A stretch of DNA of 64,000 nt from Porodaedalea pini (lineage: Eukaryota; Basidiomycota; Agaricomycetes; Hymenochaetales; Hymenochaetaceae). Below the pieces are notes generated by a model. That model was not told the origin of the DNA, ran no database searches, and worked only from the letters and a program-made list of their open reading frames with translations. Positions 12,735-46,212 of the stretch are shown here, in pieces. The translations under genes were made by a program, and so were the position numbers. Position 1 is the stretch's first letter. Each line of letters begins with the position of its first letter. The stretch lies in the NCBI GenBank assembly GCA_002794775.1, contig NBAY01000067.1, positions 62,001 through 126,000 of the forward strand, read 5' to 3'.

Positions 12735-12741
12735 CAGTCCT

Positions 12742-13610
12742 CACTTCAGGTACCCCCTCTAGGAGGTAACTCTTAGGTGGAATAGGCCCTATGGGTGATT
12801 CCACCTAAAGGGCCCTGTTCTCACAGTTGTCATCCCAGCATATGGGACATCCCTCAGCTGGGCTGCACCAGTTGAATCATACCTCATGATTTTGGGGCCA
12901 TCCCATCAGTGTCACAGAGTGTCTGGGGGACTTTTGGGGGGATTTACCATGGATTTTAGCCCTAATTATATACTCTTTAATGACTCTTTTAGGCTTATTC
13001 TGGCCTATTTTGGGATGCTTTCAGCACTGAAGCCATGTACTTGAGTATATATAAGATCAGCTTTCCTAGGATTAACCTGTGAGAGGTCAGATATTTTTTC
13101 CAATAGCAGAATTTACCTTCCAAAATGCCACTAACAGGTCTCAACTCTATAGTTGTATACAGCTATGAGTCTTTTGCTTTCAGCCATAGTAGTATATCAA
13201 AACACAGCCTCCTGAAACCAGTTCAGTAACTATAGTATTATGATACAGTATAGTGTTCAGTCATGTAGGCAATGATGGGCAATGATGACACATGAAGGAT
13301 CAGTAGAAGAAGTCTATATCTTGCTGATAACAACTTCATGGAGTACTGAGCCCTTGGGATTTGATGCATGGTTGGTATTATCATGAATGCTGAGACTAAA
13401 ATTGTTATGATTAGTTAGTAGGTTCATTGTATAACATAGTCACTATAGAAACTAGTTTTCAATACTTTACTGTTATTTGTCACTGGGATATCCCCAGCAT
13501 GATTTGTTTGGGACCTCCCAGCATAATTTATTATTAGACATCCTAACATAAATCATGTGGGACATCCCAGCATAAATAGTCTGGGAGGTCCCCAGAGCAA
13601 TTATGCTGGG
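12742..13610 (+). repeat. Left terminal inverted repeat (869 bp)
   Basis: Reads CACTTCAGGTACCCC at the outer end and matches the reverse complement of 45061-45929 over the whole length as far as I can follow by eye. No CG dinucleotide was seen in it. Confidence 0.9.
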
Positions 13611-13789
13611 AGGTCCCAGAGTAAATTATGCTGGGAGGTCCCAGAGTAAATTATGCTGGGAGGTCCCAGAGTAATTATGCTGGGACATCCCAGAGTAATT
13701 ATGCTGGAACATCCCAGAGTATTTATGCTGGGATATCCCAGCATAAAGTACTCTGGGATGTCCCAGCATAAATCACCTAGAATGTCTCA
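13483..13789. repeat. Subterminal palindrome array, left end
   Basis: About a dozen copies of the near-palindrome TGGGAnnTCCCA (middle TG, CA, GG, AT or CC) spaced roughly 25-28 bp apart, joined by AT-rich spacers such as GCATAAT and GAGTAAAT. The outer units are shared with the right end; the inner units differ in number and middle bases. Such subterminal repeats are typical transposase-binding sites in DNA transposons; binding here is inference. Confidence 0.85.
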
Positions 13790-14264
13790 GAGTAAAACTT
13801 TGGGTTAGCTCACCAGAAATCATAAGAACATTGTAAGACATTAAAATGAGACACAGATAGACAAGGATGAATTTATATGCAAGTCTTTTTTTAGTGAGAG
13901 TCTTGCAAAAGTATTTTACAAAAAAAAAAAAAATACAAAGTATACTATGACAAGTAGTAAATGATACATCAAATGAGACAACAAGAGAAGCTGATAGGAG
14001 GTGGTGGTGATAGTATAATAGAACTGAGGCTCCTAGACCAGACTAATTTACATTATATAATCACAAGCTATCTAGTCATATTGGACTCATTATTGTAGAC
14101 AAATAGCTAGAGAGAGTGATCTGACATTGGTATGAGAGACTGGCCAGAAGAGAATAATTTAAATGAACTGAACTATTTGATCTGTTCTTCCACAGATTGC
14201 AAAATATCACCCACTGACATGATGAAATAAGTTTGATCAACAAAGTATGAGAACTATTTACTAA
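13790..14264. other. AT-rich gap inside the left end
   Basis: No gene. Contains an A run at 13920-13933 and no CpG. Lies between the palindrome array and the 3' end of the KDZ gene, so it may be 3' untranslated DNA of that gene. Confidence 0.35.
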
Positions 14265-17200
14265 TTACAGCTCCACTGATCCATAATCTGCCACTCTAAT
14301 ACAAGATTTTTTTGATGGTGAATACTGCTCTGATGAGGAAATATCATGAGTATAGCCTTCAAGCTCTGACTCTGTAATCATAGCATGAGTATGCTCAGAC
14401 TCAATCTGTTCTGCAAGCTCAAAAAGCTCCTCTCTTTCAGCTCCATTGGCATCTGATTCAGATTTGGCATCTAGTGATTCGTTGTCATCCTCGATATCTT
14501 CTTGACCCTGACTGTTACTTAGCAAAAAAGAGTCACAAACAGCAGGAACTGTGAAATATGTAGATGCTGTCACTCTTGCCTTGTACTGTGCCATGTCCTC
14601 TGCAGATGGACCCCATCCATCACTGTAAAATATATCCAGGGGCGGAATGGCCCCTAACCTTCTTTGCCATTCAACGTAAACAGATAGAAGAAATTCACGT
14701 CTTTTATGAAGGGCAAATGTTAGACTGAATGAAGCTGCTAATCTCATTTCAGTAAATATTATTAGAAAAGAGGAATGAGCCTCACCAGATGAGTTCAATG
14801 CATGATCTGTACATGACCATACTTCATTAAACCAATCTTTGATAGTGAGTTTTTCTTTCTTTAGTCACTTGATTTCTTTGTGACACCACCTTATGTCTAA
14901 AAGTGCACGAATGCCACTCCAGACTTCATCTACTCCCATCCAATGAGGGATGTCAGGCTTGTTGATGTCGAACAATCCATCCTCATTCCAAATATCATTG
15001 TCAACATCAAGCTTAAAAAGGCCTTTGATTGAAATAGGTTTTGGACAGGCCGCATTCGGAGGAGTCTTGCTTCAAAGCTTCTCACACAGTTTATTGTAGG
15101 ACTTTGCAAGTTGGATGATACCGGGCTTGTGACATTTCAATTGTGATTTGATGAGTTCAGCTTTTTTGTGTTCTGTGTGTACGGGTTTAGTCAAAAATGG
15201 TAAGGTAAAGTAATTTGAGATGCTTACCACCAGATGCAGAATGCTGAGTGCGATATGGCCACTCCAAGTTTTGAAGCTCAAACTTGCGATTTCTTAGCTT
15301 CGCAATGAGACGAGCATGTAATGCACAAGCATTCACGCGGTCATTAATGAATTCACTATTCTTTAAGGATGAGAGTTTTTCCTTATCTGCCATTCCAAGT
15401 GCATTCGTCTTCATTTCCATTTCCTTGAACAGATGCGTACACGTAGACTCCAATATGGAAATGGAATTCCATGTTTCTTCAAAATCAATGCCTTCTTTGC
15501 TTTCTAGGCTCCGATGCAAAGCACGTATCTGTTGTAGGATTGTGGCAGAACGTGATTGCAAGTCAATGATGTCTTCGATCGCATTGTGGCCTGCTGACTT
15601 TGATTGGCCTGTACACAATTCAGCTATGTGTTCGTAAGTTGGACACTAAAAGACCTATGTGGTAGAGCTTGTGACTGTTGTTCAATCTGTGCCTCCCATT
15701 CCTTGTCAAGCTCCTCCTCCAAAATCCCACTTTCTTTCAGTCTTGACTTGGCATCTTCAAGGTGCCTATAACAATCTTGTGTCCATTTACAAAACCAGAA
15801 ACCGAGTTTGAAGAGATTATTGGTACTCAGATGTTGGACTTGCATGTCAATGATATGCAACCTTTGGTAAAACTGATCAATTGTTAGTTAGCATAAGTGC
15901 ATTATCATGGACAAGACTCACTCTGCTTATGCATAGTGATGGTATAAGGTGTTTAATAGAGCTCCAAAATTGCTCGCACCCTTCGCCGTCCATCAGACCA
16001 AAGCCATCGCGTTTTCTAGGATGACATGCCCATTGGTGCCCATATGCATGGAAGACAGAAATAGCAAAGACCATATGTGGCACATATTCTGAAAGAAAAC
16101 CCCATTTAACGATACTACAATGAAGTTGGCAACCTACATCATACAAAACCCTGACAATAGCATCAACAGGGAGATGTTGAAAAAGACATTTGAGCAAAGC
16201 AAGAGTGTAATACTGCTTCTCACCAGCCGACTGCATGTTTGTGAGCCAGAGGACGTGATCGTGTCGACAAAGAAGTGCCATAAGTCCAGTATCTAAGAAG
16301 AACCACGTGCTCACTTTCTGACGGCAGTCATCAGCAGCTTTGAAAGACGACTTGCATTCGTCCAATACCTCATCTGGGACCTTCAACTTGGGAGTCCCCA
16401 AAGTTCTGGAAGTATTTTGTTCTATTCCAGATCCATTTCAATTGTGCTTGGTGCGGTCTGGGCGAATCTGAGCAACTTCGCGCTCCATAGCCTTCAAATC
16501 ATTGTCCGGCAAGAAAACAGTCTTGGGATGTACATTAGGTGGACCTTGTTCAGTCTTCCTGCACTTTTGCTGGAAGCAAGTGTCAATGCAGACGGCAAGA
16601 TCAAAGCTGAGGATTTAATGATTAACCAACCTTAATGTACAAGTCAGATTCTACTCACTTTAAGGAGGGGTCGTGCTTCCAGTTAGGTCCTCCAAAACAC
16701 GCTGGACAGCACTCTTGGAGGTAAGGTGACAGCTGGCTTGGGTGAGGATTGGTTTGTATTTCATCAATGCTGGCGGCTAAAAAAATCCAAAAATTTACTC
16801 CTAAGTACTGTCCTTCGTGAAATTGAATACGGCACATTATTATCTACTGTTTTCTATATTCAGGGTCCCTTCACCTGCATCGTCCTGCTCATATAGATTC
16901 CCTACAGAGACAAAGTTAGCAATATAATCTACGTTCAGTCATAGAAGAGAACATACCTTCATTGTCTGAGTCAATCTCATCATCACAATGCCAAGAACGA
17001 AAAATTTCTTGGGCAAGGCGAGCTAGGCAGGGAATGTGATCTCTCCGCTTCAGAATCCTCACTGTATTCACTGTGTATCATCGAGTCCTTATCATCTACT
17101 GAGTTTATAACAACGTTGATGCATTGCTGTGTGGCATCATAGAGTGCACCAAACCAATGCAGACATTTACTGAACCGTTTACGAAGTGAATCCTACGAAA

Positions 17201-18062
17201 TGTATCAATCGCATGAAGCTGATAATATTAGTGGACACATACCGAAGACTTGAACAAATAACCATGGTTCTTCAGAAAGACTTCTAAGGTATTACAGAAC
17301 ACCGTCTGATTTGGAGAGATGCATGCAAATAATTCAAGACAGAAGTCCAAAACATTTAAGTCAACAGCCAATGTAGGAAAACACGGAGTGCAACCAAATA
17401 AACCCCTCTCAAGCAGCTGATGAGGTGCCATTCTGCACGGACACGCTTTGATATGAATCCTATCTAGTCCTAGTAAAAAAAAGTAGTTAGCGATCATTTC
17501 ATTTTCATACAACCCCGTTAAACGAACCTTTGAAAGAGATACAGAGAATATCAAGCTTCATTCAAGTGCCTTGACACACACATTCCGGAAAGGCCATTGG
17601 CATGATAGGATGCCAGAGGGACACAGATCAGTGGAGAATATCGAGATATTGGTCGATGAGGCACAGTATAACTTCCCCAAACCACCTCTGGTGCTGCCTG
17701 TGTCATTTTCAGCTGAATCTTGACATATGTATGTCCATATGCTAGCATGGAGAGTATATGGGGATGGACTCAGGATCATTGCTGATACTGAAATCATTCT
17801 CGAATGTATCAAAAACATTGTTTGGAGGCGGTGGATCTTGCTGGTCTGGATCCAGAGCGCTTTGAGATTGAAAGCCAGGGATGGGCAGCAGCATTCTATT
17901 TCCAGGTAATATTACGATAGGGACAGGTTGCAGTACTTTCGACTTGCGTGGGTTGAGTAATTCTGACAAGACCGGTCCTGGGGTAACACCTTGGGTGGGC
18001 GGGTCTTGAATCGACTGTCAAGCTTCTTGCTTTTGCTTGCTAGTGTGTCTTCTTCCCATCAT
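14265..18062 (-). pseudogene. KDZ transposase with CxC1 cysteine cluster (copy 2, element transposase)
   Basis: The start is the ATG at 18062 (MMGRRHTSKQKQEA). TGA at 18018-18020 breaks the frame after 14 codons. Blocks in order: Pro-rich linker (SQSALDPDQQDPPPPNN, about 17850); CxC1-type segment (HIKACPCRMAPHQLLERGLF, FPTLAVDLNVLDFCLELF, 17550-17230); PYLQECCPACFGGP (16720); DLAVCIDTCFQQKC (16590); and the core at 16401-15877 with FKAADDCRQK, DTGLMALLCRHDHVLWL, RVLYDVGCQLH, ISVFHAYGHQWAC and GFGLMDGEGCEQFW, where the catalytic acidic residues of KDZ enzymes are expected. A helical C-terminal part follows (15860-15187, GQSKSAGHNAIEDI) and an acidic tail ending GSVEL at 14265. A second TGA lies at 16438-16440. 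The gene faces away from the Spt5-like gene at 22.3 kb. The length and complete block order indicate this was the element's own transposase. Confidence 0.85.
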
Positions 18063-19256
18063 TCGTACAATGAGTTCAAGTTAAGATTGTGAGACAGATC
18101 AAGGGCAGAAATACAAGCCAAAAAAAGGCCTAGGGTCATAAAACATTACAAACAGATAGAGAACTTGTGGCCTGCTTGTCAAATAAGGTAGTAATTAGGC
18201 CACTAACTGAATGAAAATTATAAGGATGACATACTTGCATGCCCTGGCCTTTTCTGAGTCCCTCATTCATTCGTTGTTCCCTCCTCTTCTCTTCTCCAAG
18301 CAACTATGCATACCTGACAACTTCAACCTACCTACTTTTGCAGCACCTCCAATGTGTCCCTCTTCAATTCTCATATTTCTGAGGTGCATTCTCTCATTTC
18401 TCTTTGGCATTGTCTCGCAGAATGCTAATCTATCATACTTTCCTTATTTTCTTCAACTGCGTGCATAATTGCGTGGAGATAAATCTCACTGAACAATTAG
18501 CCCAATATGCTGGCGGAATCAAGCTGACACTTTTGGCGCAGGTGTCTGACCTCTTTCTACTTTTTATCTATGTCTACTGTACATGCTTGCTACCTGAAGA
18601 TGTCTCGACCAAACCAAAAGAAAGGAAGCAAGGTCTGAAGATGCTTGTGCAATACATGAAGTACATTGTATGCAGACAATTGTTGATTTGACCACAATGC
18701 ACCTGTGGAACCTATCCAACCTGCTCAGCGTCCCAAGCGCAACCTTGATTCCATGCTTGGAGCCCTTACTGGAGAAATCGGAGGTCAGCACAGCTGAGAC
18801 CATGGTGATGAAGAGGACGAGGAGGGTGAGATTCTTGAGGCGGCGCTGGGAAATCGTTGATGTCGAAGGAACACATGGTCAATATTGCCCAGTACAGAAA
18901 GAATCTCATCACCATGTGTGATCTCGACGAGGTGGAAGAGTACTTAACTGCAAAATTTCATCTCATGCTTTTCAGCTCTGCTGAGGCAAAGGAGACTGAT
19001 GTAAACTTGTTACAGACCTGTTTGAGCGTGCTCTCTTGCAGAATCTCTGTTCACCTGCTTTGTATAGGTGTTCGTCGCATATGAGCAGATGAGGCAGCTA
19101 GGGTATTAGAGGTGGGAGGATTGGAGGCAGGAGATGTTGATGTGTGCGGCAAATGGAGGTCATGGTGGTCAAAGGAGAGTTAGGAAGGTGTGCCGAAAGC
19201 GGCAGCGGAGTTGGATATGCAGTGATCAGGCGCTGTAGCGCTCGATTCGCGCTTAG
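18063..19256. other. Region between divergent KDZ and Spt5-like genes, with a decayed frame
   Basis: No intact gene. One plus-strand frame from the ATG at 18600 encodes plausible protein (basic start MSRPNQKKGSK, then PAQRPKRNLDSMLGALTGE and an acidic DEEDEEGEILEAAL). Five stops, all TGA, interrupt it before a TAA near 18944. A second frame at 18857-19084 (NIAQYRKNLITMCDLDEVEE) may be its continuation after a shift or intron. I do not recognise the family. Confidence 0.3.
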
Positions 19257-19260
19257 GCGC

Positions 19261-20248
19261 TGAAAGGTGACGGTACGGTCTACTGGCAGACTCGGACCTG
19301 GTTGAGTTCGGCCACTGGGGGTTCACTCTAACGTGTCTGATGGAGGGGATAGTGTCAGGAAGTGTGGGGAAGTATAATAGAATACTCGGGGCTAGGTGTC
19401 GACTCGAGGACGTGAGTACAAAGGACGACCGGCAAAACGTGCCTAAATGCGGTCGGAGAACAAAGAGCAACTACGATCTTGACAACCCGGGCTCGGAAAC
19501 TCGCCAGTGAAGACAGGAATCGATACTATTCGTCGAGACGATTCTGAATCTGAAAAGACCTCGAGACGCGATGCAGAATTGACGGAGATATAGCAGTTGC
19601 ACTGGTTGCGGCTGGCAGAACGCACGGAACTCCCGGAACCAAAAGCTATTTTCGTAGCTCTACGACGCGGGCTCGGAATCGTGCAAGAAAAGACAGTGTT
19701 CGAAAGCAATTTTCGACGAGATTAAGAATCTGAAGAGAGCTCGGGAAACGGATAAGAACTGAGGGCGATATAGCGAAAGCAAGATTTGGCCGAAAACGGG
19801 ACTCGAGACGGAACGGACGGAACGACACTGAACGGCAACGGAGATGAGAACTAAAGACTGGGACTGACTCAGGGGAACTAAACTTGTATTTTTGAGACAT
19901 TTACATGAGTGTTTAAATAACCAACAGAGGGTTGAGCCTCTGAGCGGCGTACAAAGGACACAAAGACAGACCGGAGGCTCTAGCCAAACAATACCAAACA
20001 GCCGGAACTCGGAGCCGGAACTCGAGAACATGAGCAATTAAGCTTCGGGAGGCTCGGAACAATACCAGATGTGATCCAAAATGGACTTTGGTGGCTCACC
20101 GGTGCAGAACCAAGCTGTATGCGTCGAGTTAATCCTGCCAAACACTGAAAGTGTCCTGAAATGCGTTGGGGATACTTGTAAGACTGTCCTGAGTCGAGTC
20201 GAACCTAATAGAGCCGATTCTGAGGCCAGCGGCGTCGGGATCTCCACA
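19261..20248. mobile_element. Solo LTR, 988 bp, copy 2 (TSD GCGC)
   Basis: The same 988-bp unit as at 5656-6643, with the same TGAAAGGTGAC start and CTCCACA end. It is flanked by the 4-bp duplication GCGC at 19257-19260 and 20249-20252. Separate duplications at the two copies show two independent insertions, not a segmental duplication. It inserted into the 33-kb element after that element was in place or while it was part of it. Confidence 0.75.
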
Positions 20249-20252
20249 GCGC

Positions 20253-21740
20253 CAGCCGTCCCAGCATACCACCCGCTTTATTTATTATTATATACAGATA
20301 CAAACCCCATAAACACAGTCAAGCACCTCGTTTCATCACTGACTATCTTACACTTCGCATTTCACACGCTCGAATGGTCACATTCGGCCATTTGAGCGTC
20401 AATATACCTTCGAATCTTTCATATGATGCAGTAGTAACCTCATAAATACGTTCAAATACTTTCATACACCCATTCGAACACTCATACCACTTCCTAGTCA
20501 CACTCGAATGCTTCGTTTCCTTTATATTCATTCCATATCCCACTATATGTGCGCTCGAGCACTCTTTCCACTTCGTATCCACTTGTTCGAACACTTATAG
20601 TGCAGCTGCATTACACGGTTGGGCTCAGGGAACGCATTGGGTTCCACCATGGGTCGCTCGAACGGTTCCCGGGCTGTCGATGTTGAATGTATCACGCTCG
20701 AACGACCGGATTCCGTCGTTCTCTGCGTTCTCCATGGGGCTCAAGCGTTATTTATCATCGTCTATCACTTCCAGGGGTGCATTCGTTGCCATCACGCCCC
20801 AGGAACATTCGAGGACGTTCGAATGGAGTTGTTGGAAGCACACATGATAAATTTCTCGGGTTTCATTGGTCTTTTTATTGATGTCGAACCATTATTCCCC
20901 TTCGAGTTTATGACTCATCATGTTCTCGAGTCATTCCATCCCTAACATACGACTATTCTGACTCGAATACGCACCGCACGCACTCCCTTACCTCCGTATG
21001 TACGTTCGATGTCAGTACCGAGCTCGTTTCGCCTAGAGTATAAATAGTGCACACCTTTTGTACTCATTCTGTAGAGGGAATACACCCCCAGTTCGCCGCA
21101 CAGTACACTTTTCGAGTCTCATAAGTCATTCCCGTCTTCAGTTCATCTCTGCTCTGCCTTAGGGAGCTTCGCCAACCACTCGAATAGCGCGTTCGGTTCA
21201 CCACATACGCTTGAAACCGAGATTCCAAAACTCCGAGCGCCCGACAAACCCAACAGGGTATTATACCTGCATACTTCCGTCCCCCCACACGTTCGCCGCC
21301 TACTAAGAAGTCACTCGATCGCATCGGGATACACTCGAACACCTTCGAGTGCGTTCGAACGCTCGACGAACACCATCCAGGGGTTCAAACCATCCGAACC
21401 AGACTGACACGGCCCCGCACCTTCCTCAACTTCAGACTTCAATCACTATAGTCATAGGGTCTGCGTCAAGAGCTCGATTCTGTCAGGATCGAGCGCTTTG
21501 GCAAAGTTTCTGAACCAGAAGAGCCATTGTCTCGAGCGTTCGGTCACTCCGTTTCTATTTGGTCATCCCTCCTTGACTATCGAGTCACCGCAGTCTCCCT
21601 TGGGAAGAATATAGATTCGCCCTCGAATCGACCGTACGGTCTATAAAAGAGTCTGCATCGCGATAGCGCGTGTACATAACCTTCTGCATTTAGATACTCT
21701 GTACTTACAGGCATCTCGTTCACACACGCTAATCACTGCT
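20253..21740. other. TCGA-rich block with TATA-like boxes
   Basis: About thirty TCGA tetranucleotides, many inside GCTCGAACG or TTCGAACAC contexts, occur here, several times the chance rate. TATA-like strings lie near 21040 (GAGTATAAATAG) and 21641 (CTATAAAAGAG). No supported gene. High CpG content contrasts with the CpG-free ends of the host element, so this may be a younger insertion or promoter-type DNA of unknown origin. Borders are not defined. Confidence 0.45.
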
Positions 21741-22320: not shown

Positions 22321-24300
22321 TATGAGTACAAACTCTGCCAAGAAGGTGAGGAGAGGAGTGTGTACTTTGTAATATCAACTAAAGTGAGCTGCAGATGACC
22401 ACACAAGCAGAAGATGAACGTGTGCTCTGTTATCTAGACCTGGAGGCAGAAGACTTCAACAATGACGACACATTTTTGGATGCGGACAAAAGTATGTGAG
22501 TCTGAGATACAAAAGATGTTAGTTGATGTATTATATATGTAGAGTCTGGCTTCATCAATGAGGGCGAAGGGATGTTGAGTCATGAAGAGCACCCTTGGCC
22601 TGCACTATACAATATTACTCTACGAGATGATGTCAAAACTATAGTTCGTGGGATTAAGGAGCGGCATAAATCATATAACAAGGATTCAGTAGAGGAACAA
22701 ATGGAAAGAGAGAAGGAGTGTACGTCTGAGAAGGTGGGTGGTACATGGAGTAATCTGTACTTGATATGTGTCCGGGTGAGTGAATCCAGTTGAAAAGTTG
22801 CTGTACTTTGCTTATGCATGTATAGCTCGGCCATGAAACCAAAGAAGTGAAACTACTGGACGAAACCTTTCATGACATCGAGAGTTCTTGGGTAAACCAA
22901 GGACTTCCTCATCCTAATGAACAACCTTGCGCATTCTCTCTACCAGCATATCCTGGACGTATCTATGCGATTGCTCCAACACTTGGCGAAGTCAACTATG
23001 TGAAATCTTGGCTGAAGCATTGGAATCTCTCGACTGTAGTTTGTGTATGGGATGATGATGAAATCACAGCAGTATTCAGAATGTGCAATGGAGGCTCTGC
23101 TCATGAGACATATGAAGTTGGCGAATGGGTCATCATTCAGCGCGGCCTGTACAAGGGTGATATAGGCCACGTCAGAGAGTCGAGCACTCAAGATGATTGT
23201 ATCATGGTGGCAGTCGTACCTTGACTTGCAATCAACAAGAACTCATCCATTCGTCCTGAGCCAGCCCTTTTTTCCCCTGATAAGTTTAGCAGCAAAAGCT
23301 TGAAGAGAGTCGACTCGACGACTTACAAGTTCAGGCGTCGTAAGTACAAGAATGGACTATGCAAACTGACCTGCCCTAGTCTGCACTACGTTAGAAAAGC
23401 ATCTCCTTCTTTGCAGGACATTGGGCTATTCACTCATATGGAGGAATCTTTCAGTCATCTGGATCGTGGCGAACTGTTCCTTCAAAGTGGCAATAAAATC
23501 TGTAGCTTCTCGACTGGCTTAATTGGGACTGTAGGCGACATCTCCCAGTATGCTGTCTCATCAACACATACCATAGCTAGCCTCGGGAATATAACAGGCA
23601 GCATCTCTGGCAATATTTCGAACAATAGACGCTCGATTATGGAATATACCAGCATAGAGGAAAGAAAAAAGGTGAAGGGAAAGGGAAAGGAAACAGAAAT
23701 GGAAACGGAAACAAGGACAATCGGTTTTCTCTCAGTGGACTACATTCCTATTCTTAATGTAACAGACAATTCTGGCCGAGTTCAGTATTCTATGATCAAA
23801 TATGCCGTAACAGACATTCATAGAGTATTAGAACCAGGTATGAATGTTTGTGTTGTCATTGGCCCATTCTCTGGCAAAAGCAGGATGATACAGACTGTCT
23901 CACTGGATGAGAAAGAAGTCACATTGGTTACAGTCTCATACTCTATGGTGCGTATGTACGTTCTTCAAGGTGTATTTACTTAAACATTCTTTAGATTACT
24001 GTCAGAAAAAAATGGGTTCAAACCGCAAACACTGATATGACTCGTTCTGGACTTGAGAAATGCGTCGCGGAACTCCTCCAGAGCCGATGGTGCTTCATTA
24101 TGAGCGGTCAGTATAGTGGACAAAAGCATCAAGTCATATCAATTGAGAACAAGACTGCAACCCTGGTTTTCGTGTTTGAGGATGAGTTGAAGAATATTGT
24201 TGTTTCCGATGAGGTTTGTCTTTATCCTATCACCAAGAGCTCGCTCATTCATGTCTACAATAGTTTACTGAACACGTTGTCTTGCTGGAAGTGGGGATGA

Positions 24301-25633
24301 TAATATTCTGGTGTGAAAATGAATCCAATGGTACTTCCACTGAGTTGACCGGTCTATTTATCTAAACGGGTCCTTCCCAGGTGTTCAGTGAAGAGGGACA
24401 GAGATTGGTGTGATAGCTGTGTGTGGCTGTTGGAGATTGCAAGCTTGCCTTGCTGATGAATCTAGGCTGTGCTAGATAGGGTACCAAACTAATTGGTAGT
24501 AATGAATATAATAGAGTGACAGTTTTAACTGCTGAGTTCTTAACTGCTGAGTTCCTAACTGTAGTCTGACTAAGAACCCTGGTGGTTCTGTGCTTCTGAG
24601 ATCTAGAGGGGAAAAATGTATATTCATTTCTAGGGCAGCAAAACATGCCCTATTTATGCCCTTTGGCAGATACAAAGCTGTACTACACTACTAGAGACCT
24701 GATTCTACAAATGACTACATATGATGATACATGACACTCTCTGACTATCCCTTCTGACTCCTTGTGACTCATTTTGACTACTTCATCATGACTACATGGG
24801 ATCACGGCTGACTGATCTATTGTGACAGTATATGACTCATTGCTGATCATCATCATGCTCTGATGTGATTGCCACTGATTAAGCCATTGTGACCGTGTAT
24901 GACTCATTGCTGATCATCATGAACACTGCTTCCTCCATTTGGAGAGGCCAGCCTAGACCTTGGTCTTCCATCCTTTCTGACTTCCTTTCCCACACTAAAA
25001 TGGGTGAGGCTGTGCAACTTCCTGAAGCCATGACTACTGAATAAGATGTGTACCCTCTTTTCTTCTGCAACCGACTAATTGAATGCTTTTGATCGGGGAC
25101 CTTGCTAGGCTTTATATCCGATATCTGAGTACTGTGATAGTCAAATATCTTTGTGAAAAGGTCATTGCCTGGTACGCAATTCCCTAAATGTCTTCCTCTA
25201 TGATGTCGAGCTGTGCCAAAATACACTCCTACCTGCGCCTCTTGTTTAATCACTTGATGGCCTTTCTGAGACCTACCCAGTCTGATGGTTACTGCCAGAT
25301 GGAGCCAATTAAGTAATGATTGTCTTTTCCTCTTTTGGGTTAGACCATCTGACTGCATATTATTTCAGTATCCTGGTTGAGACGACTATTCGGGTGGAGG
25401 TAGACTGGGCTCCTATGATCAATGTGGCTCGGCTTGTCCAGAGGCCTATTCGGTATGATAATAATAATTATTTCTGGTTAGAGTTTCACATGGCTAATGA
25501 TTATTCAGGTGCGCTTGAGTGATTGTGCCTTGGGTGGGATTTGGGGGATATGTCCTTAGATGATTTGTTATGAGTATCATGTTACATGCTAGTTGATGAG
25601 CATAATGCAAGTGCATATGTGCAAGTTTTGGGT
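24301..25633. other. Unresolved insertion inside Spt5-like copy 2
   Basis: This DNA interrupts the Spt5-like gene together with gypsy A, and its other side is 31951 to about 32120. The minus strand begins TGTAGAATCAGGTCTC at 24709 and has an AT-rich box (GCATAAATAGGGC) and tandem pieces, resembling a degenerate LTR, but I found no partner or target duplication. A 160-codon minus-strand open frame (25358-24879) has no recognised motif. An imperfect tandem duplication around 24810-24920 shares TATGACTCATTGCTGATCAT. Confidence 0.35.
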
Positions 25634-25638
25634 GTGTT

Positions 25639-36018: not shown

Positions 36019-36443
36019 TGTCATGGACGCTTTTTTAAATTATCTTATCTTATCATATCTTATCCATCCATCACTAATCACGCTTATTCCTGCTTACTCA
36101 TTATTCATTACGCTCCTTCTCGCACTATCCTTACTCGCTGACCGATCCTATGAGTTCATTATTCTATGAAGTTCCACGACGTTCTATCATCTATCCTTAT
36201 GTAGTAGTTAATTCCCTGGTCCGTGCGCAGCCGCTGAAGGGTATATAAGTAGGTAGTCCTCCTGTACTTATCCCCTAGTTTCGACCTAGTCAATTCTACC
36301 TGGCTACGTCCAGAAGCTGCTCCTTATCTCCACGCTGTGTCAGTTCCCCCTGGCTCACCGCTCTCTCTCTTGTCTCCCTCCTCCTCTGACTGAGTTCCGC
36401 GCGACCCGGCTACCATTTGCATACCCGTAGTCCGTCGCTGACA
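36019..36443 (+). repeat. 5' LTR of gypsy B
   Basis: 425 bp. Has A at 36332 where the 3' LTR keeps CpG, C at 36359 where the 3' LTR has T, and CA at 36420-36421 where the 3' LTR has TG. Confidence 0.95.
36242..36248 (+). promoter_or_regulatory. TATA box in the 5' LTR of gypsy B
   Basis: TATATAA at 36242-36248 within GGGTATATAAGTAGG, about 223 bp into the LTR; repeated in the 3' LTR near 42756. Confidence 0.6.
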
Positions 36444-37298
36444 CAAGGTCGAAACTTACCCCTACCGCCTTGCGCATTCTCAGTCACCGACGCCAAGCTG
36501 GCTCTGAACATTCGCATCTCCTACCGACAACAATCTCTCTACCGCGCTACCATCTACACCTTTACCTGTACCCCGCAACTCACTCTCACCATTGAACTCC
36601 TCCTACTATCTATCATCATCACTATCAACCCCCATCCTGTCCAACAACCTCAAAACCGACCACTACCTGTCCGTAACCCCGAACTCTAGACCAACATTCT
36701 CATCCGACGCGTCCGACGACTTGGACTGCGACCCCGACTACGATCGCTTCGACCCACACCTATTCTTAGATCGATCTCACGTGCATCGATCAGGCCGATA
36801 CGTCGTTAATTCCTTACCTTCATTATTAAACTCACTCGTTTCACAACCCGCCGTCCTCTTTCTATTCGATCAACCAGCACTCGTTTGAGAGGGGGTAACG
36901 TTGAGTCCGACCCACTCGAGAGTAGCTACCAGGCCTTGGGGGTGATCTTCGGAAAGGTCCCTTGGCGCCCGTTGGAGTCTTCACAGAGGAAGATCCGGGT
37001 TTGATCAGCAAGTGAAAGTCGACCACCGCATCCGGAGTTTTGTTACAGCACTCAATCAGATCCGCAGGCGTCCGCACCACCTGTCGGCTGGCAGTGTTGT
37101 TTCTGATTTGAGCTGGCTCCACACCCGTACGCTCAACTGCCTGGATCAGCGGCACAGCGGTGGAATACACCACCAGAAGACACTGCCGACGCTGTCCTCG
37201 CACAACTACCACCCCTGACCGACGATGACCTGGTACGCCTAGACGACGAGCTAGGAGTCCACCAACCAACCCACCCATCACCAACACCACCGCCTATC

Positions 37299-38384
37299 AT
37301 GGCAGAACCCCAAGCCCCAGCTGCGCCAGCAGCCGCAACTCCGACGATCTCAAACGACATGATGCAGGAGATCATCAACGTGCTACATGGCCTGGGATTA
37401 CTCGCAACCCCCACACCAGCAGCCGCAGCCGCACCTGTCCCTCCACCAACAAGCCGCAGTGGAGGAAGACATATCGCCAAACCCGAGGCATTCAACGGGC
37501 GAGACTACAAGAAGTTCAAACGTGCCATCACCCTTTACGTTGAAGCTAACGCAGAGGACTTCATGAACGACAAGGACTACTTCCTTTTCGTGTTGTCATT
37601 TATGACGGAAGGCTCGGCCGCACTCTGGGCACAGAACTTCCTGGAAAGCATCAAGATGGACGGCTATCTGATCTTTTCGCTCGTCAGTCGCCAGAAGTTT
37701 AACGAACAGCTGGAGAAAGCGTTCGGAGATCCGAACGAACGCATGAACGCCATGCAAAAATTGGATAGCTGGAAGCACACCCGAGACATCACAGCCGACC
37801 AATTCTTCCAGCAGTTCGACATCTATCGCCGTGCGGCAGGATACAATGATGACGCAAAGAATGACGACACCCTCATCCATAAACTGACGAAAGCCTTGGA
37901 TAGAGAGATCGTATACCGAATCGAAATGAGTGACACGGTCCCAACCACGTACAAGGGCTGGCAAGAAAAAGCCATTCGATTCGATAACGCTAGACGTCAG
38001 ATGAAGGCCATCGAACAAATGCGCGCTGCCCCGTCCAGACCTCAGGTACTCCCACCAAAACCTACCCAGACGTTCACACTGAGAACCCCCGAAAGACACG
38101 ATGCCACCGGAGTCACATACGGAGGCATGGGGAAGCCGATGGACGTCTCACTCAAAGAGCTGAGGAAAGCCGGACTCTGCTACTACTGCAAGGAATCTGG
38201 ACATCTACAGAGGAATTGCCCGATGCAGAAGAAGGTGATAAGGGCTGTGTTGATGGGGATGGAACCCCGAGAGAGAAAAGTCTGGGCAGACGAGACCGCG
38301 ACGCTCAAGGAGTCAGACTTTGCGGAAGAAGAAGAGGAGGCGCTCTTTGAGCAGGAGTTGGATTTTGCGGAACCCCAGCAGTGA
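37299..38384 (+). CDS. gag: Gag protein of gypsy B (361 aa)
   Basis: An Ala/Pro-rich N-terminus leads to a retrotransposon Gag core (FNGRDYKKFKRAITLYVEAN, AALWAQNFLESIK, FGDPNERMNAMQKLDSWK, TADQFFQQFDIY). A CCHC zinc knuckle starts at Cys294 (CYYCKESGHLQRNC). The tail is acidic (EEEEEALFEQELDF). The product would assemble the particle around element RNA. The frame is open upstream to about 37107 without an ATG, as in element A. It ends at TGA 38382-38384, with the pol frame in the -1 phase. No lesion found. Confidence 0.9.
   Translation: MAEPQAPAAPAAATPTISNDMMQEIINVLHGLGLLATPTPAAAAAPVPPPTSRSGGRHIAKPEAFNGRDYKKFKRAITLYVEANAEDFMNDKDYFLFVLSFMTEGSAALWAQNFLESIKMDGYLIFSLVSRQKFNEQLEKAFGDPNERMNAMQKLDSWKHTRDITADQFFQQFDIYRRAAGYNDDAKNDDTLIHKLTKALDREIVYRIEMSDTVPTTYKGWQEKAIRFDNARRQMKAIEQMRAAPSRPQVLPPKPTQTFTLRTPERHDATGVTYGGMGKPMDVSLKELRKAGLCYYCKESGHLQRNCPMQKKVIRAVLMGMEPRERKVWADETATLKESDFAEEEEEALFEQELDFAEPQQ
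38360..38366 (+). promoter_or_regulatory. Possible -1 frameshift site, gypsy B
   Basis: G GAT TTT in gag phase, followed by GCG, sits at the same distance from the gag end as GGGTTTT in element A. It departs from the X XXY YYZ rule at one base, so slippage would be less efficient or the site is mutated. Confidence 0.35.
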
Positions 38385-41300
38385 ACACGGCACTGACTGG
38401 GATAGGTTCAGTTTCGGTTTTTCAAACGGCCATTTTTGATAATTCTATGGACTCTGTAGATAATTTAGATAAAATACAAAAAAATGTAAAAAGCAATGTC
38501 ACTCGCAAAAATATTCCTTCTGTCCCTGTACCAGTAGCTAGTAGTATAGATATGCCTATATGTAACAACACGTCTGCCTCATCATCTCGTCCTACTCCTG
38601 TGTCAAAAAATCATGTAAAACCCTGTTCCGAATCTTTTAATTCCATTTCTTCCTTGGCTGAAACTGAACCGAAATCCGTGAAAAATGAAAACTCATCGAA
38701 ACAAGCTGAGAGGAAGTCCTGGAGAGATCGCCCTGTCCCCTTTACGGCCCCATGGGTAGTACGGCGTCTCAAAGAGGATAAACTCGAAAGTGCTTTAACG
38801 ACTCTCCGAGTGTGGATGAAACAGCAGAGGCATGCTGAAGCGAATGAAGAGACGGTGCGTCAAATCATTGCGCTAGAAGAACCAGATGCCGTGGCAGCTG
38901 TTAGGGACCTGAGGGGTCCGAAACGGTTCGTAAGAGGGTCTCGGGGGCAACAGCTCATGGTACCGATTCTCCTTCAAACAACCGACACCGGTAACCAGTT
39001 CAAGGTAGACGCCCTACTGGACAGTGGCTGCACTGGCTCATGTATCAACCGATCCTTCGTCGAAAAGCATCAGATCCGGACAAAAAAGACACCCATCCCA
39101 ATCCGAGTCTATAATGCTGACGGCACCCTCAACAAGGACGGCTCGATCACAGAGTTTGTGGAAATGCGCATGACGATTAAAGATCATTCGGAGCACATCC
39201 ACTTCGCGGTCACAGACCTAGGGAAAACAGATGTGTTCATCGGACATGAATGGTTAAAGCTGCACAATCCCAACATCGACTGGCAAAAATCAACGATTGA
39301 ATTTGATCGATGCCCCGATGTATGCGGCTATATCCGTAGTCTAGAGGACATTGATGCAGACCCCAACGAAAACCTTGATTTGGTGGAACTTGAAGACGGC
39401 GATCAGCTCTTCCTCTTCGATTGGGACAGGTACATTAAGTCCGATCCGAGAAAAGCGCTGAAGGTCAGACAACAGGTGCTCGAGGAAGTCCCAAACTATG
39501 TCAAAGAGTTCGCGGACGTCTTCAGTGAACAGGAATTCGATCAGTTACCAGAGAGACGCCCTTGGGATCATGCTATTGAACTCAAGCCGGGATCAAAGCT
39601 CTCTGACTGTAAAATCTACCCGCTCAGCCCATCCGAACAGGTGGCACTGGACGAATTCCTCACCGAAAACTTGAGAACTGGCCGTATTCGTAACTCTCAA
39701 TCTGAGATGGCATCCCCCTTCTTCTTCATAAAAAAGAAGGATGGCAAGCTTCGCCCCGTACAGGACTATCGCCGGCTCAACGAGATGACGGTTAAGAACA
39801 AATACCCGTTACCTCTAATCCAAGAGCTCATTGACAAAACGAAACAGGCGAAATTCTTCACGAAGCTTGACATACGTTGGGGTTACAATAACATTCGGAT
39901 TCGAGAGGGCGACGAGCATAAAGCCGCCTTCAGGACAAACCGCGGTCTATTCGAACCAACGGTCATGTTTTTCGGTCTCACAAACTCACCGGCAACCTTC
40001 CAAGGATTCATGAACGAGATCTTCCGAGAACTCGTCAATGATGGACACGTCATAGTCTACATGGACGACATCCTGATCTTCGCACGAACTCACGAACATC
40101 ATGACAAACTCGTCCAACAAGTCCTGGAAGTGTTGCGAGCAAACAAGTTGTTCTTAAAGCCAGAAAAGTGCAGCTTCGCTCAAGAGACCGTGAACTATCT
40201 TGGGCATATCCTCGGCAACGGACAGATTCGCATGGATCCAGCCAAAGTGGCGGGTGTAAAAGATTGGCCAGTGCCTAAGAACAAGAAAGAACTACAGTCT
40301 TTCCTTGGGTTCTGCAACTATTACCGCCGCTTCATCCTAGCATTCAGTCACTATGCGAAGCCCTTGACAGTGTTGACCGGAGATGTAGAGTGGAAGTGGG
40401 AGGTGGAGCAACAGGAGGCCTTTGAATGTCTGAAACAGAAGCTCTGTGAAGAACCTGTACTCACAGTGCCTACTGATGACGGTCAATTTCGGGTGGAGGC
40501 TGATTCGTCGCATTTCGCTAACGGCGCCATTCTGTCCCAATTCGTTGACGGAAAGTGGCATCCAATCGCATACCGATCGCAAGCGCTTAGCCAAGCAGAG
40601 CGCAATTATGAAATCTATGACAAAGAGATGTTCGCGATCATGTGCGCACTGGATGACTGGCGACAATATCTTCTAGGGGCAATGCAAACCTTCGAAATCT
40701 GGTCGGATCACCTCAACCTCCAGTATTTCCGAAAACCCCAGAAGATTAACCACCGACAAGCGAGATGGCTACAGGAGTTAGCGGACTACGACTTCAAACT
40801 ATTCCATAAACCAGGTGCCCTGATGACTAAGGCTGACCTCCTCTCGAGACGAGCGGATCATGAGAGGGGGGAGAACGACAATATCGACATTGTTTTGCTC
40901 AAGCCGGACTTATTTGTAAACGAAACACTGCTAGAAGCGCTGGATGCAGACTTCGTTAAACGAATTAAAAGGGTACGAAACAACAGGGACAGAGCAGTTG
41001 TGAAGGCGTTAGAGCGGAAGGAACGAGAGTGGGAGGAAGAAGAAGGGTTGTTGATGTGGAAGGGCAGGATCTACGTGCCGAAAGACCATAAACTCCGAGA
41101 AGACATCATTCGAAACCATCACGACAGCACGCTCGCAGGACACCCAGGACGCTACAAGACCCATGAGTTGATCACATGCAACTACTGGTGGCCGGGAATC
41201 CAACGAGATGTTCGAATGTATGTCGAGGGATGTGATGCGTGCCAACGTACGAAGGCACACAGAGCAAAACCGCACAATCCTCTGAACCCAAATGAGATCC

Positions 41301-42520
41301 CGAAAGGTCCTTGGGAAATCGTCACAGCAGACCTGATCGGCGAACTACCCGAGTCCAATGGGCATAACGCAATCTGTGTCTTCGTTGACAGGTTCAGTAA
41401 ACAGGTGCATGCGATCCCTACCTCAGTGAGCATAACGTCGGAAGGAATGGCGAGGCTCTACCGGGATCATGTCTTCAGGCTACACGGCATACCGCGCAAG
41501 TTTATTCATGACAGAGGATCACAGTTCGAGTCCAAATTCATGAACGAACTATACTGGTTACTGGGCATCGAGGGAAACCCGTCAACAGCATATCACCCAC
41601 AGACAGATGGTCAGACAGAACGGATAAACCAAGAGATTGAACAGTACCTTCGTCTCTTTGTTAACCACCATCAGTCGGACTGGGCGGAATGGCTTGCGCT
41701 AGCGGAATTCGCGTACAACGACAAAGAACAAACGTCGACAGGAGCGTCACCCTTTTTCGTCAACCATGGGAGACACCCATATAAGGGCACGAATCCTAGA
41801 CGCGAATCGACCAATGAGTCCGCTAAGCAGTTTGCCGACTGGATGGCCAAGATCAGGGAGGAAACCGAATCGGTGTTAAAGCATGCGGCCGAAACCATGA
41901 AGCGCTTCTATGACAGGACGAAGGGAGAATCCATCGAGTATAAACCTGGGGAAAAGGTCATGCTCGAAGGAACTCACTTAAAGACAGATCGTCCTATGAA
42001 GAAGCTGGGAGATAAACGTTATGGGCCTTTCATCGTCGAAAAGAAAATCGGCACGTCAGCATATAGACTTAAACTTCCACGTACATGGAAAAAAGTCTAT
42101 CCAGTTTTCAATGAAGTGCTCCTCTCCCCATACCACGAGCCGCAGTATATGTCGCAAAAGCAGGATCTTCCACCCCCGCCTGAAATCATTGACGATGTGC
42201 CAGAATATGAGGTCGAAAAGGTTGTCGACTCCAAACTTGTGTGAGGGAAGCTCAAATACCTCGTACATTGGAAAGGGTATCCGAACGAAGAACGCACCTG
42301 GGAGCCAATTGAGAATTTGACGAACTCTCAAGAGGCCATTGACGAATTTCATAAATCAACTCCCAGTGCTCCTCGCGCCCTCAACACCCTAGAGATGTCG
42401 CAGCTGAAGTTCCGACCCGTGTTTGAAATGACGGAGCCTGAGAGACAGAAAGGAGTGGCACAGTGGTGGGCCGGTAAGTTCCAGGGTAGGGAACAAGGGC
42501 GATCGGGACGCTCGCCTTGA
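38366..42520 (+). pseudogene. pol: Pol polyprotein of gypsy B, TGA inside the chromodomain
   Basis: The frame continues in the -1 phase from the end of gag; the open stretch from 38381 begins with GTG, not ATG. An AT-rich Ser/Asn-rich linker (about 38400-38690) precedes the protease (LLDSGCTGSC, 39017), reverse transcriptase (FFFIKKKDGKLRPVQDY; YMDD at 40061-40072), RNase H (RVEADSSHFANGAIL; YEIYDKEMFAIM) and integrase (HHDSTLAGHPG, GCDACQRTK; DLIGELPES, HDRGSQFES, QTDGQTERINQEIEQYL). TGA at 42242-42244 falls where element A has Arg in HRGKLQYLVKW; after it the chromodomain (GKLKYLVHWKGYPNEERTW) and tail stay open to TGA 42518-42520. The truncated product would lack only the chromodomain. The linker's base use differs clearly from the rest of pol. 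Confidence 0.9.
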
Positions 42521-42532
42521 AGGGGAGGGTCA

Positions 42533-42957
42533 TGTCATGGACGCTTTTTTAAATTATCTTATCTTATCATATCTTATCCATCCATCACTAATCACGCTTA
42601 TTCCTGCTTACTCATTATTCATTACGCTCCTTCTCGCACTATCCTTACTCGCTGACCGATCCTATGAGTTCATTATTCTATGAAGTTCCACGACGTTCTA
42701 TCATCTATCCTTATGTAGTAGTTAATTCCCTGGTCCGTGCGCAGCCGCTGAAGGGTATATAAGTAGGTAGTCCTCCTGTACTTATCCCCTAGTTTCGACC
42801 TAGTCAATTCTACCTGGCTACGTCCAGAAGCTGCTCCTTATCTCCGCGCTGTGTCAGTTCCCCCTGGCTCACTGCTCTCTCTCTTGTCTCCCTCCTCCTC
42901 TGACTGAGTTCCGCGCGACCCGGCTACCATTTGTGTACCCGTAGTCCGTCGCTGACA
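42533..42957 (+). repeat. 3' LTR of gypsy B
   Basis: 425 bp. G at 42846, T at 42873 and TG at 42934-42935 are the sites that differ from the 5' LTR. Confidence 0.95.
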
Positions 42958-44043
42958 GACCAAGCTTATGCAGTCAACCAGCTTATTGCAGGAACACTGC
43001 TTGTCGAGCAGGCCCTTAGAGATTACAAAGGCCACTTCAGAAGTTTGATAAGGGACATGGAAACAGCTATAAGGTATGCAATCTTATCACTGATGTATTT
43101 GCTTTTGTACTTACACTGAACTTGCCAATTCAAGGGCGACTCAATTAAAAGTGAAAGGCATCGTGTCAATGGATTGCCTGATACTCACCTGTTCCTTGAG
43201 CAAATCGAGGGACATTCGATGGAAGGTCTTCATTGAGTATTTCAAGCTTGACCTTGGTTTGTAACTGTTCTTCATGGAATTCAGATGTATCTAACTAGTT
43301 TTCAGAGCTTCTCTTCAAGCATCGTGGAGTTTCTATCAGAGTGCCTTTATTTCAGGTTCAAGAACCGATTCTGCCTTTCCTTTGGAAGCATAAGATAGGG
43401 ATTGTCACAATTCCCGATGACATTACCAAACTCGAACTATGAAAGAAGGACGAGAAGGATTTCAAGTGGCCGCTGCTGCGGCTTGATTTCAGGTTGTTCT
43501 GGGGGGGACTGAAGAAAGGTGGTCCACTCAAAAGCCTAACAGATCCTATTGTTGCAGAGCAAATGGCTTTGAGAGACAGCAAAGATTTTTCTGGACACGT
43601 TATGTGCTTTGTTGACTTACAAAAAGGTATATCTTGCCCATACTTATTAGTGTTCATTGTCTGAATGTTGTTTAGATCTATCTACGTCATCCGACGACCT
43701 GACGGATCTAGAGGATTGGCCAATTGTGCAGAATGTCTCAAAACAGCCTCTAGTTGCATTGTGACAATGTGAAGAATTCCTCAAGGAGCTCAATGCTTCT
43801 CATAAGGCATATGCTCCATCACCAACATCTATGCTTATCCAGTCACCTTCTCATTTAACTCACGTGAATGCCACTGCCGGCCCATCTTCTTTTCCAACCA
43901 CTCATCACCATGTAGCTCAACTGGCACCTGATGAGGGCTATAACAATGAAGATTTTGACGCACGCGTGCTGAAGAAGCCTAGATTAAGCACTGCTGATTT
44001 AGCCGAGTTGATTCCCTTTCCAGACTACCCAGACATAGACTGA

Positions 44044-44881
44044 CGCATTATCAATAGAGGAAGGCTAGCAATGGATCAATGGAGGGCTGGAGTAGAGCTT
44101 AGTAGTTAGATTTACAAGCTTTGTTGTACTTTAAATATCTATATGTGCAAATTCTTTTCCTCACACACTCAAGCACACCAACAGCACATACTCACATGTC
44201 TTGGACATCAATATTATTGTCTTCTCTGTCACTTACAATAATTTTATGCTCTTCTTCACTCTCACGAAGCTCTGTCAGAACTTCACAATGGCTAACTCCC
44301 AAGTTAGCCTTTTCACTGAGTAGTCTGTACTTTTACTGGTACTTGTTTGCTCATTTTATGTGCCAGTCTAATGCATATGAATTGATTGTTGTGAGTGTTT
44401 TCTCTCTAGTCTTTTTGTGAGCATAGCATACAGATCGGAAATATGATTCAACACAAGGCCAGATGCATTCCTGAGCTTTCTGGCACCTGCATTCAAAACT
44501 GATGCTGTTGCTTTGACTCAAAGTTTGATCATCTGTTAATAGGTACAGGCCAATACCAACTGCTGACACTGATAACTGTCAAGCTCTTGATTTCAACAAG
44601 TTGGTCATGGAATGGTAATAAGGCAAGCTACTAATAAGAATAGTACCAAGCTTCAAGGCTTCTAATTTTTTTGTCAAATTGTATGTATTTCTAATGTAAG
44701 GATGCTATAGTTCCACATTTCCATTCTGAACTATATCATCCTGTTCATGATTTCCTGTATGCTATTGCCTAAATCAGGTGGGTTGGTCTCCTCTTTTACA
44801 CATTTATTAAAGGAGCAAATGTCTTTTCTATATGATTTTATCTAGGGTAAAGGTACTCTAGATATCTCATGTAAATTGTAT
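44044..44881. other. AT-rich gap inside the right end
   Basis: No supported gene. A 99-codon open frame (44121-44420) is hydrophobic and Ser-rich but starts within AT-rich DNA and has no motif. From 44437 on no CG dinucleotide was seen. Confidence 0.35.
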
Positions 44882-45188
44882 TGGAACATCCCAACATAAA
44901 TCATGTGGGACATCCCAGTGTAATTTATTATGGGACCTCCCAGTGTATTTATACTGGGATGTCCCAGAGTAGGGCACACTGGGATGTCCCAGCATAAATA
45001 CTCTGGGATGTCCCAGCATAATTTACCCTGGGATGTCCTAGCACAATTACTCTGGGATGTCCCAGCATAATTGCTCTGGGGACCTCCCAGACTATTTATG
45101 CTGGGATGTCCCACATGATTTATGTTAGGATGTCTAATAATAAATTATGCTGGGAGGTCCCAAACAAATCATGCTGGGGATATCCCAG
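44882..45188. repeat. Subterminal palindrome array, right end
   Basis: About a dozen TGGGAnnTCCCA units with the same 25-28-bp spacing as at the left end. The outer half mirrors the left array exactly; the inner half has different middle bases and spacers (for example CCCAGTGTATTTATACTGGG). Confidence 0.85.
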
Positions 45189-45929
45189 TGACAAATAACA
45201 GTAAAGTATTGAAAACTAGTTTCTATAGTGACTATGTTATACAATGAACCTACTAACTAATCATAACAATTTTAGTCTCAGCATTCATGATAATACCAAC
45301 CATGCATCAAATCCCAAGGGCTCAGTACTCCATGAAGTTGTTATCAGCAAGATATAGACTTCTTCTACTGATCCTTCATGTGTCATCATTGCCCATCATT
45401 GCCTACATGACTGAACACTATACTGTATCATAATACTATAGTTACTGAACTGGTTTCAGGAGGCTGTGTTTTGATATACTACTATGGCTGAAAGCAAAAG
45501 ACTCATAGCTGTATACAACTATAGAGTTGAGACCTGTTAGTGGCATTTTGGAAGGTAAATTCTGCTATTGGAAAAAATATCTGACCTCTCACAGGTTAAT
45601 CCTAGGAAAGCTGATCTTATATATACTCAAGTACATGGCTTCAGTGCTGAAAGCATCCCAAAATAGGCCAGAATAAGCCTAAAAGAGTCATTAAAGAGTA
45701 TATAATTAGGGCTAAAATCCATGGTAAATCCCCCCAAAAGTCCCCCAGACACTCTGTGACACTGATGGGATGGCCCCAAAATCATGAGGTATGATTCAAC
45801 TGGTGCAGCCCAGCTGAGGGATGTCCCATATGCTGGGATGACAACTGTGAGAACAGGGCCCTTTAGGTGGAATCACCCATAGGGCCTATTCCACCTAAGA
45901 GTTACCTCCTAGAGGGGGTACCTGAAGTG
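45061..45929 (-). repeat. Right terminal inverted repeat (869 bp)
   Basis: Reverse complement of 12742-13610, ending GGGGGTACCTGAAGTG. The equal length of 869 bp implies no net insertion or deletion between the arms. Confidence 0.9.
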
Positions 45930-46212
45930 CAGTCCTGACTATGAGTACTATGTTATTACACCACTTCAATATCACTATCTACAGTAAAGCCACTTTGCTA
46001 GACAGTTATAGTTCGATGATCTGCATATTGTACTGTACTATAGTGTGTAAATTTGTGGCGAGTGGCCCCAAAGACATTCACCGAAACTTACCAATACTTT
46101 GGCTAGTAATAAAATAGCAAAATTAAAGATATTGCAAACACATAAAACCAGCAAACAATTCATGTGCGTTTCCAATCAGCAGAATCACGCGCTTCATAAT
46201 TGCAAATCGACA

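Follow-up and report, generated by a model that had tools for sequence, protein, structure and literature searches.

The 64-kb stretch of Porodaedalea pini DNA analysed here (the window; C67:62001–126000 of the 53.3-Mb genome, other copies being named by their contig) contains a 33-kb member of what is very probably a family of cut-and-paste transposons of the KDZ superfamily, with CACTTCAGGTACCCC ends, a 7-bp target site duplication (TSD), long terminal inverted repeats (TIRs) carrying arrays, a fixed divergent layout of three genes and a core of about 16 kb. Direct comparison placed CAGTCCT on the plus strand at both 12735–12741 and 45930–45936, bearing out the duplication that a first-pass annotation had reported directly outside both ends. 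The element proper runs from 12742 to 45929 (33,188 bp), the earlier span of 12735–45936 having taken in both TSDs. Its arms, at 12742–13611 (plus strand; no CpG) and 45060–45929 (minus strand; no CpG in the outer 730 bp), show zero differences over 870 bp, so that the identity first claimed for them holds and the length of 869 bp is corrected. Similarity between the arms extends inward at lower identity, to about 13796 and 44903. The tip itself is present exactly twice in the window (up to two mismatches), at the two ends, with 0.04 occurrences expected from shuffled windows.

The same tips recur across the genome. The first 200 bases of the element matched 12 places, a degenerate 30-base tip pattern gave 11 matches against 0 for its reversed control, and the 15-base tip CACTTCAGGTACCCC occurred 43 times exactly and twice with one mismatch, its reversed control giving 2 at up to one mismatch. 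Inspection of the flanks of all 45 tips yielded 13 adjacent inward-facing pairs with spans of 1.3 to 38 kb. Exact 7-bp TSDs border 10 of these 13 pairs, the chance of such a duplication at any one pair being about 6e-5, and the TSDs of the 11 pairs that have one differ in sequence from one another. Two short elements with family tips and TSDs (5.7 kb on C1 and 5.3 kb on C15) gave no KDZ match, which is what a transposase acting only on the ends would lead one to expect. Several points weigh against so simple a picture: the TSD of the C107 pair is 8 bp long, the pairs on C19 and C46 have none, 19 of the 45 tips have no adjacent inward partner, and the whole case is a comparison of sequences within one genome. 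In addition, the sequence following the C8 tip (one mismatch) is unlike the family, and this tip may be a chance match. The left flank at C19:38646 and the right flank at C46:112902, both belonging to the TSD-less pairs, share the 8-base CCAAAAAT crosswise, which could reflect an exchange between two copies.

Unoccupied counterparts of the insertion sites are present at paralogous positions. The joined flanks of the window element gave 13 matches, of which 2 were the flanks themselves, 10 were one-sided and 1 spanned the junction in a single alignment, to C67:53426–54077 at 74% identity. A single target-like 7-mer stands there, ungapped and with 4 of 7 bases equal, followed three bases on by a 2-base gap; the locus appears to be a diverged local paralogue and not an allele, and a search of the genome found no allelic empty site for the window element. 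The C3 element interrupts a retrotransposon resembling gypsy A, one of two gypsy elements nested in the window copy, and positions 29150–29190 of gypsy A provide the uninterrupted counterpart, with the target present once and 6 of 7 bases equal. The first-pass annotation had proposed a single mobile unit and set beforehand, as its test, a tip search for inverted pairs, 7-bp duplications and empty sites. With 43 exact tips, TSDs at 11 of the 13 inward pairs and two unoccupied sites, paralogous only, the proposal came through that test.

The left part of the element encodes a KDZ transposase, as proposed earlier: the domain (PF18758) was matched at 15877–16437 on the minus strand with E 6.5e-42, and in the gene model of C3 with E 1.2e-63. 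The gene comprises several exons with approximate limits of 14265–17557 (minus strand), and its KDZ match at 15931–16605 contains one in-frame stop. A CxC1-like N-terminal piece at 17228–17557 scored 24.8 bits against a curated cut-off of 26.9, and 20.2 bits in C5. Codon patterns between the window and C3 indicated a minus-strand transposase and two plus-strand genes. Within the superfamily, the branch is most likely Kyakuja, given the 7-bp TSD of 10 of the 13 inward pairs and the 5′-CA..TG-3′ termini (CACTTC..GAAGTG at the 43 exact tips); the 8-bp TSD of Zisupton was seen in only 1 of the 13. The placement was made on described traits of these groups. Against it, two Laccaria Kyakuja families are said to have no TIRs, a trait that is perhaps not defining and that differs from the 870-bp TIR of the window and the 1,046-bp TIR (96% identity) of C5. 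The 7-bp TSD and the KDZ domain do not fit CACTA/EnSpm, which has 2–3-bp TSDs and a CACTA-type transposase. No Pfam match to the Starship tyrosine recombinase was found in 10 window open reading frames (ORFs) of at least 150 amino acids between the ends, nor in the C3, C5 and C107 models. No TET/JBP match fell within the elements, and the one weak match in the genome, below cut-off, lies on C6 at no tip pair. AspBHI, Kelch, TOPLESS and CAF1C matches in window ORFs were likewise below cut-off and were dropped. We would class the family as a new variant within the KDZ transposons, resembling Kyakuja.

Facing away from the transposase, in the opposite direction, are a Spt5-like gene and a gene that we call gene 3. 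In the window, the Spt5-like gene occupies 22390–24279 (plus strand; approximate limits from the C107 model, with an open exon at 23225–23983) and 32024–33130 (plus strand), and gene 3 occupies approximately 33850–36018 and 42963–44050 (both plus strand), the second part containing an in-frame stop. The Spt5-like gene models contain KOW motifs above the Pfam cut-off, and in the PDB all 12 matches at E <= 1 were to Spt5 (9 at E <= 0.001; best 5.6e-8; residues 87–415), the query being the C5 model trimmed of its uncertain beginning. The only Spt5-NGN match in the genome, at C24:294683, marks the host Spt5; when aligned to this 3.2-kb locus alone, the transposon protein shows 23% identity over 205 columns (E 4e-10). 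We therefore call the protein Spt5-like, and far from the host's own. Several results count against the assignment. The Pfam Spt5-NGN model misses the transposon copies at E <= 0.1; AlphaFold prediction of the Spt5-like exon from four sequences had a mean predicted local distance difference test score of 35.5 and was unusable; and a large protein database queried with two spliced models and one exon returned no Spt5-like or gene 3 homologue at E <= 0.001. Moreover, the gene models may skip stops by false introns and do not prove that the genes are intact: the C5 and C107 Spt5-like models omit 17 conserved residues whose reading frame is open in each of the four copies compared, and the C107 model skips a stop upstream of its main exon. 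Gene 3 had no Pfam or PDB match.

The three genes recur together. The Spt5-like gene was found at at least 14 loci, a lower bound from the 54 of 122 candidates that were scored, and at 12 of these it accompanies the transposase and gene 3, always in one divergent order; the exceptions are C106, which has gene 3 and no KDZ match, and C7, which has neither transposase nor gene 3. The module lies within nine of the 13 tip pairs, and each of these nine has a TSD. Contrary to the initial description of a cargo-carrying element, the extra genes form a conserved gene set of the family and not variable host cargo. Ratios of nonsynonymous to synonymous substitution (dN/dS) between copies, with saturated pairs excluded, were 0.07–0.17 for the KDZ exon, 0.14–0.31 for two Spt5-like exons and 0.06–0.46 for two gene 3 exons, calculated without codons containing gaps or stops and without pairs sharing fewer than 40 codons. 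These values indicate purifying selection on exons of all three genes. Arguing the other way, the transposase C terminus gave 0.19 to 0.72, with 0.68–0.72 in two comparisons with C17; the ratios come from five copies of one genome, C17 serving for the transposase only; and saturation left no value for 4 of 10 KDZ comparisons, 1 of 10 transposase C-terminal comparisons and 3 of 6 for one gene 3 exon. In the comparison of C5 with C3, the KDZ exon is saturated at synonymous sites, whereas divergence there is 0.79 in one Spt5-like exon and 1.22 in another. The Spt5-like gene is thus closer than the transposase at these sites, which suggests that it may have been exchanged between subfamilies or elements. 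No report of a Spt5-like gene in a DNA transposon was found in the literature covered, a scope that does not take in Iyer et al. (2014), who reportedly named KDZ.

About half of the 33 kb of the window element consists of later insertions, at three or more places. The copies on C3 (16,247 bp) and C107 (22,792 bp including its own gypsy) are collinear with it end to end. Gypsy A, gypsy B and an LTR-like (long terminal repeat) piece lie within the element, as annotated before, and the comparison disclosed two further insertions, 19238–21667 and 24280–25638/31946–32023, neither assigned to a strand. As these had been overlooked, the core is about 16,070 bp and not the 18.9 kb estimated originally, and similar sizes are found in C3, C5 (16,649 bp), one C15 copy (16,269 bp) and C29 (15,821 bp). 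The first insertion (2,430 bp; absent from C107) has an imperfect border duplication of 7–8 bp by eye and includes the 988-bp LTR-like piece at 19261–20248. The second, spanning 24280–32023 and absent from C107 and C3, splits the Spt5-like gene and holds gypsy A (25639–31945, plus strand; 413-bp LTRs; TSD GTGTT by eye). Gypsy B (about 36019–42957, plus strand; LTRs of about 425 bp; TSD GACCA by eye) splits gene 3. The LTRs differ at 3 of 413 sites in gypsy A and 4 of 427 in gypsy B. The window copy also has one in-frame stop in a KDZ stretch that is free of stops in C3, C107 and C2, and stops in two stretches of gene 3 that read through in C107. It is a dead member of the family, and would presumably move only if another copy supplied transposase. 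A related LTR-like piece of 988 bp lies outside the element at 5656–6643, with 71 mismatches in 991 positions and no gaps relative to that at 19261–20248, and each of the two has a 4-bp duplication by eye (CCGG and GCGC). A separate gene at about 18.1–19.2 kb was considered and dropped, conservation there having no clear frame and the C3 model being poor.

Both ends of the window element carry a subterminal array of 24-bp units containing the palindrome TGGGANNTCCCA, at 13484–13773 on the left (plus strand) and 44889–45188 on the right (minus strand). All 16 copies of TGGGANNTCCCA in the window fall within the two arrays, 8 in each; the array of C5 is built of another unit, of 25 bp. The ends of plant Ac/Ds and En/Spm elements have comparable arrays, made of short transposase-binding motifs whose methylation sites influence binding, whereas those of the present family are nearly CpG-free. 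Among eight arms of the window family, 44 diagnostic sites distinguish arms on the transposase side (reference C107 and C2) from those on the far side (reference C107 and C65). Both window arms are of the far type at 41 sites and of the transposase-side type at 2. A C43 arm, left unassigned to either side, has 39 far-type sites and 3 of the other type, and the transposase-side arm of C139 shows a single switch, with 26 far-type sites and then 18. The left window arm carries far-type variants and was therefore overwritten by right-arm sequence. Such overwriting also explains why the arms have zero differences while the LTRs of the nested gypsies differ at 7 of 840 sites, provided that rates are equal and that LTRs start out identical. 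The identical arms of the window element are thus best explained by gene conversion from the right arm to the left.

The outer 1 kb or so of the examined elements is nearly CpG-free, beginning at the element edge. Twelve arms of 630–730 bp contain 3 CpG altogether. Counted over 30 of the 45 tips, the outermost 100 bases of the element hold 4 CpG in 3,000 bp versus 141 expected, and the 50 bases outside hold 55 in 1,500 bp versus 64 expected. Windows of 350 bp with at most one CpG make up 28 of 30 in the ends, compared with 31 of 749 elsewhere in the sequence compared (windows partly overlapping an end being omitted), and the two end windows with more than one CpG most likely reflect a gypsy inserted in the C65 end. 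Because CpG-free ends are common to the subfamilies seen, this state travels with the element. Whole-element ratios of observed to expected CpG are 0.82 for C3 and 0.81 for C5, and gypsies and their LTRs are near 1; in C3, the gypsy-like flanks are also poor in CpG. The interior of the window copy has ratios of 0.30–0.60, and CpG transitions account for 200 of its 448 derived changes versus 33 of 325 in C107 (8,734 columns, polarised by C3), which indicates that this copy lost CpGs after landing. Most GGGANNTCCC palindromes have CA, TG or TA at the centre and none has CG, in relaxed counts that are inflated because the pattern may score one site twice; strict TGGGANNTCCCA counts likewise include no CG centre. 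The window family and C3 have elevated CpA in their arms (1.30–1.42), C5 only 1.09–1.12. The genome has 3 DNA methylase matches and, above cut-off, no TET/JBP match. A search of the literature found no matching report of CpG-free transposon ends. Two further CpG-poor zones were observed. One, at 61801–62901 of the window (GC content 0.35–0.37; 0–1 CpG per 700 bp), is possibly the end of another element, and no array like that of the element was found near it. The other, about 2 kb nearly without CpG at C28:23301–25500 (GC content up to 0.49), lies about 3.4 kb from another KDZ gene (C28:19200) and may represent an end from an additional KDZ family that has different tips.

The perfect arms could have arisen without transposition, as inverted copies of an ordinary repeat that came to flank 33 kb of immobile DNA by segmental duplication or inversion. 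Assemblies can create long perfect inverted repeats, and duplicated segments do occur among the tips: those at C2:14813 and C107:87125 belong to a single insertion present twice (2,875 bp of common flank at 99.86%), and the near-identity over 50 bases of the C43 and C96 flanks, and of the C4 and C82 flanks, points to two more probable cases. Such an origin is nevertheless extremely improbable in view of the many exact tips, the 7- or 8-bp duplications of differing sequence at 11 of the 13 pairs, the collinear interiors of C107 and C3 and the unoccupied sites. If the element is instead a transposon, perfection over 870 bp might simply mean that it landed very recently, with no gene conversion. 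This we regard as very unlikely: at the divergence of the nested gypsy LTRs, 7.25 differences between the arms would be expected, with a probability of none of about 0.0007, the interior has lost many CpGs, and the left arm carries variants of the far-side type.

The CpG-free ends may result either from CpG avoidance or from depletion by long methylation there. That they are mere wear, of no benefit to the element, has in our view somewhat less than an even chance. Deamination of CG would give the CA, TG and TA palindrome centres, although a TA centre would yield these too. The raised CpA of the window-family and C3 arms, the methylase matches and the excess of CpG transitions in the window copy over C107 also agree with methylation, whereas the bodies of C3 and C5 and the gypsy LTRs in the window keep their CpG, so that on this account only the ends could have suffered the loss. 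Alternatively to a role in the element, the Spt5-like gene and gene 3 could be passengers, host genes captured once and useless to the transposon. Gene 3, in keeping with this, has no recognised domain; yet a single arrangement at 12 loci over several TIR subfamilies, with purifying selection between transposon copies, points to use for the transposon, and we judge the passenger account unlikely. In combination, the Spt5-like gene and the CpG-free ends suggest escape from silencing. In its full form, this proposal holds that the ends were cleared of CpG to prevent methylation from blocking the transposase, that the element's own Spt5 paralogue, with gene 3, lets RNA polymerase II through silenced element chromatin, and that the ends are kept alike by gene conversion. 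We put it forward tentatively, as a possible but doubtful account.

Outside the element, the window contains a second, different KDZ gene at 7735–9293 (plus strand; CxC2 E 3.3e-28, KDZ E 1.1e-29) and, in the left flank at 5248–5524, an inverted repeat with 100-nt arms that are 90% complementary and 77 nt apart. To the right of the transposon lie a reverse transcriptase piece at 49000–49593 (minus strand; RVT_1 E 1.7e-9), part of a further retroelement, and an ordinary alpha/beta hydrolase gene at 59001–59909 (minus strand; Abhydrolase_3 E 5.7e-15).

Among known systems, the closest are the Kyakuja elements of Agaricomycetes, described by Kojima (2025) as having 7-bp TSDs and 5′-CA..TG-3′ termini, with no TIRs in two Laccaria families, which carry TET/JBP (PMC12730594). 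The family shares with them the KDZ transposase, the TSD length, the termini and an extra conserved gene beside the transposase; unlike the Laccaria families, it has TIRs of 0.87 and 1.05 kb and a Spt5-like gene, with no TET/JBP match in the elements. The term 'SPT5' is absent from the main text of that paper. Zisupton, as described there, has KDZ membership and TIRs in common with the family but an 8-bp TSD. KDZ1 of Cryptococcus neoformans, which moves in culture and has CxC1, is likewise a large KDZ element with TIRs and a TSD, but measures about 11 kb, with 241-bp TIRs and an 8-bp TSD (PMC12810828). Starships are also large fungal elements with genes beyond the transposase, but are described as combining a tyrosine recombinase with variable cargo (PMC13066641), in place of the KDZ transposase and fixed gene set found here. 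KDZ elements have been called understudied, and together with Plavaka they make up about half of the DNA elements in one mushroom genome; the Marasmius oreades paper characterises KDZ and Plavaka TIR motifs in its supplement (PMC8290104). The first-pass annotation had supposed that giant KDZ elements with complete ends and target site are rarely described, yet KDZ1 (PMC12810828) and Kyakuja with 7-bp TSDs (PMC12730594) are in print. In the literature covered, we did not find TIRs of about 1 kb with arrays, a Spt5-like module, CpG-free ends or end-to-end conversion.

In the mechanism that we propose, the transposase would bind the subterminal array, pair the two ends, cut, and insert with a 7-bp stagger. 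Expression or movement would be aided by the Spt5-like protein and gene 3, probably by sustaining transcription of the element in methylated chromatin, and the CpG-free ends would either shield the binding sites from CpG methylation or be the trace of its prolonged action at the ends. The known parallel to a transposon-borne Spt5-like gene is TET/JBP. The 13 end pairs, their TSDs, the unoccupied sites and the fixed gene set define this family within one genome, and its CpG-free ends on CpG-keeping bodies make the coexistence of a transposon with methylation directly testable.

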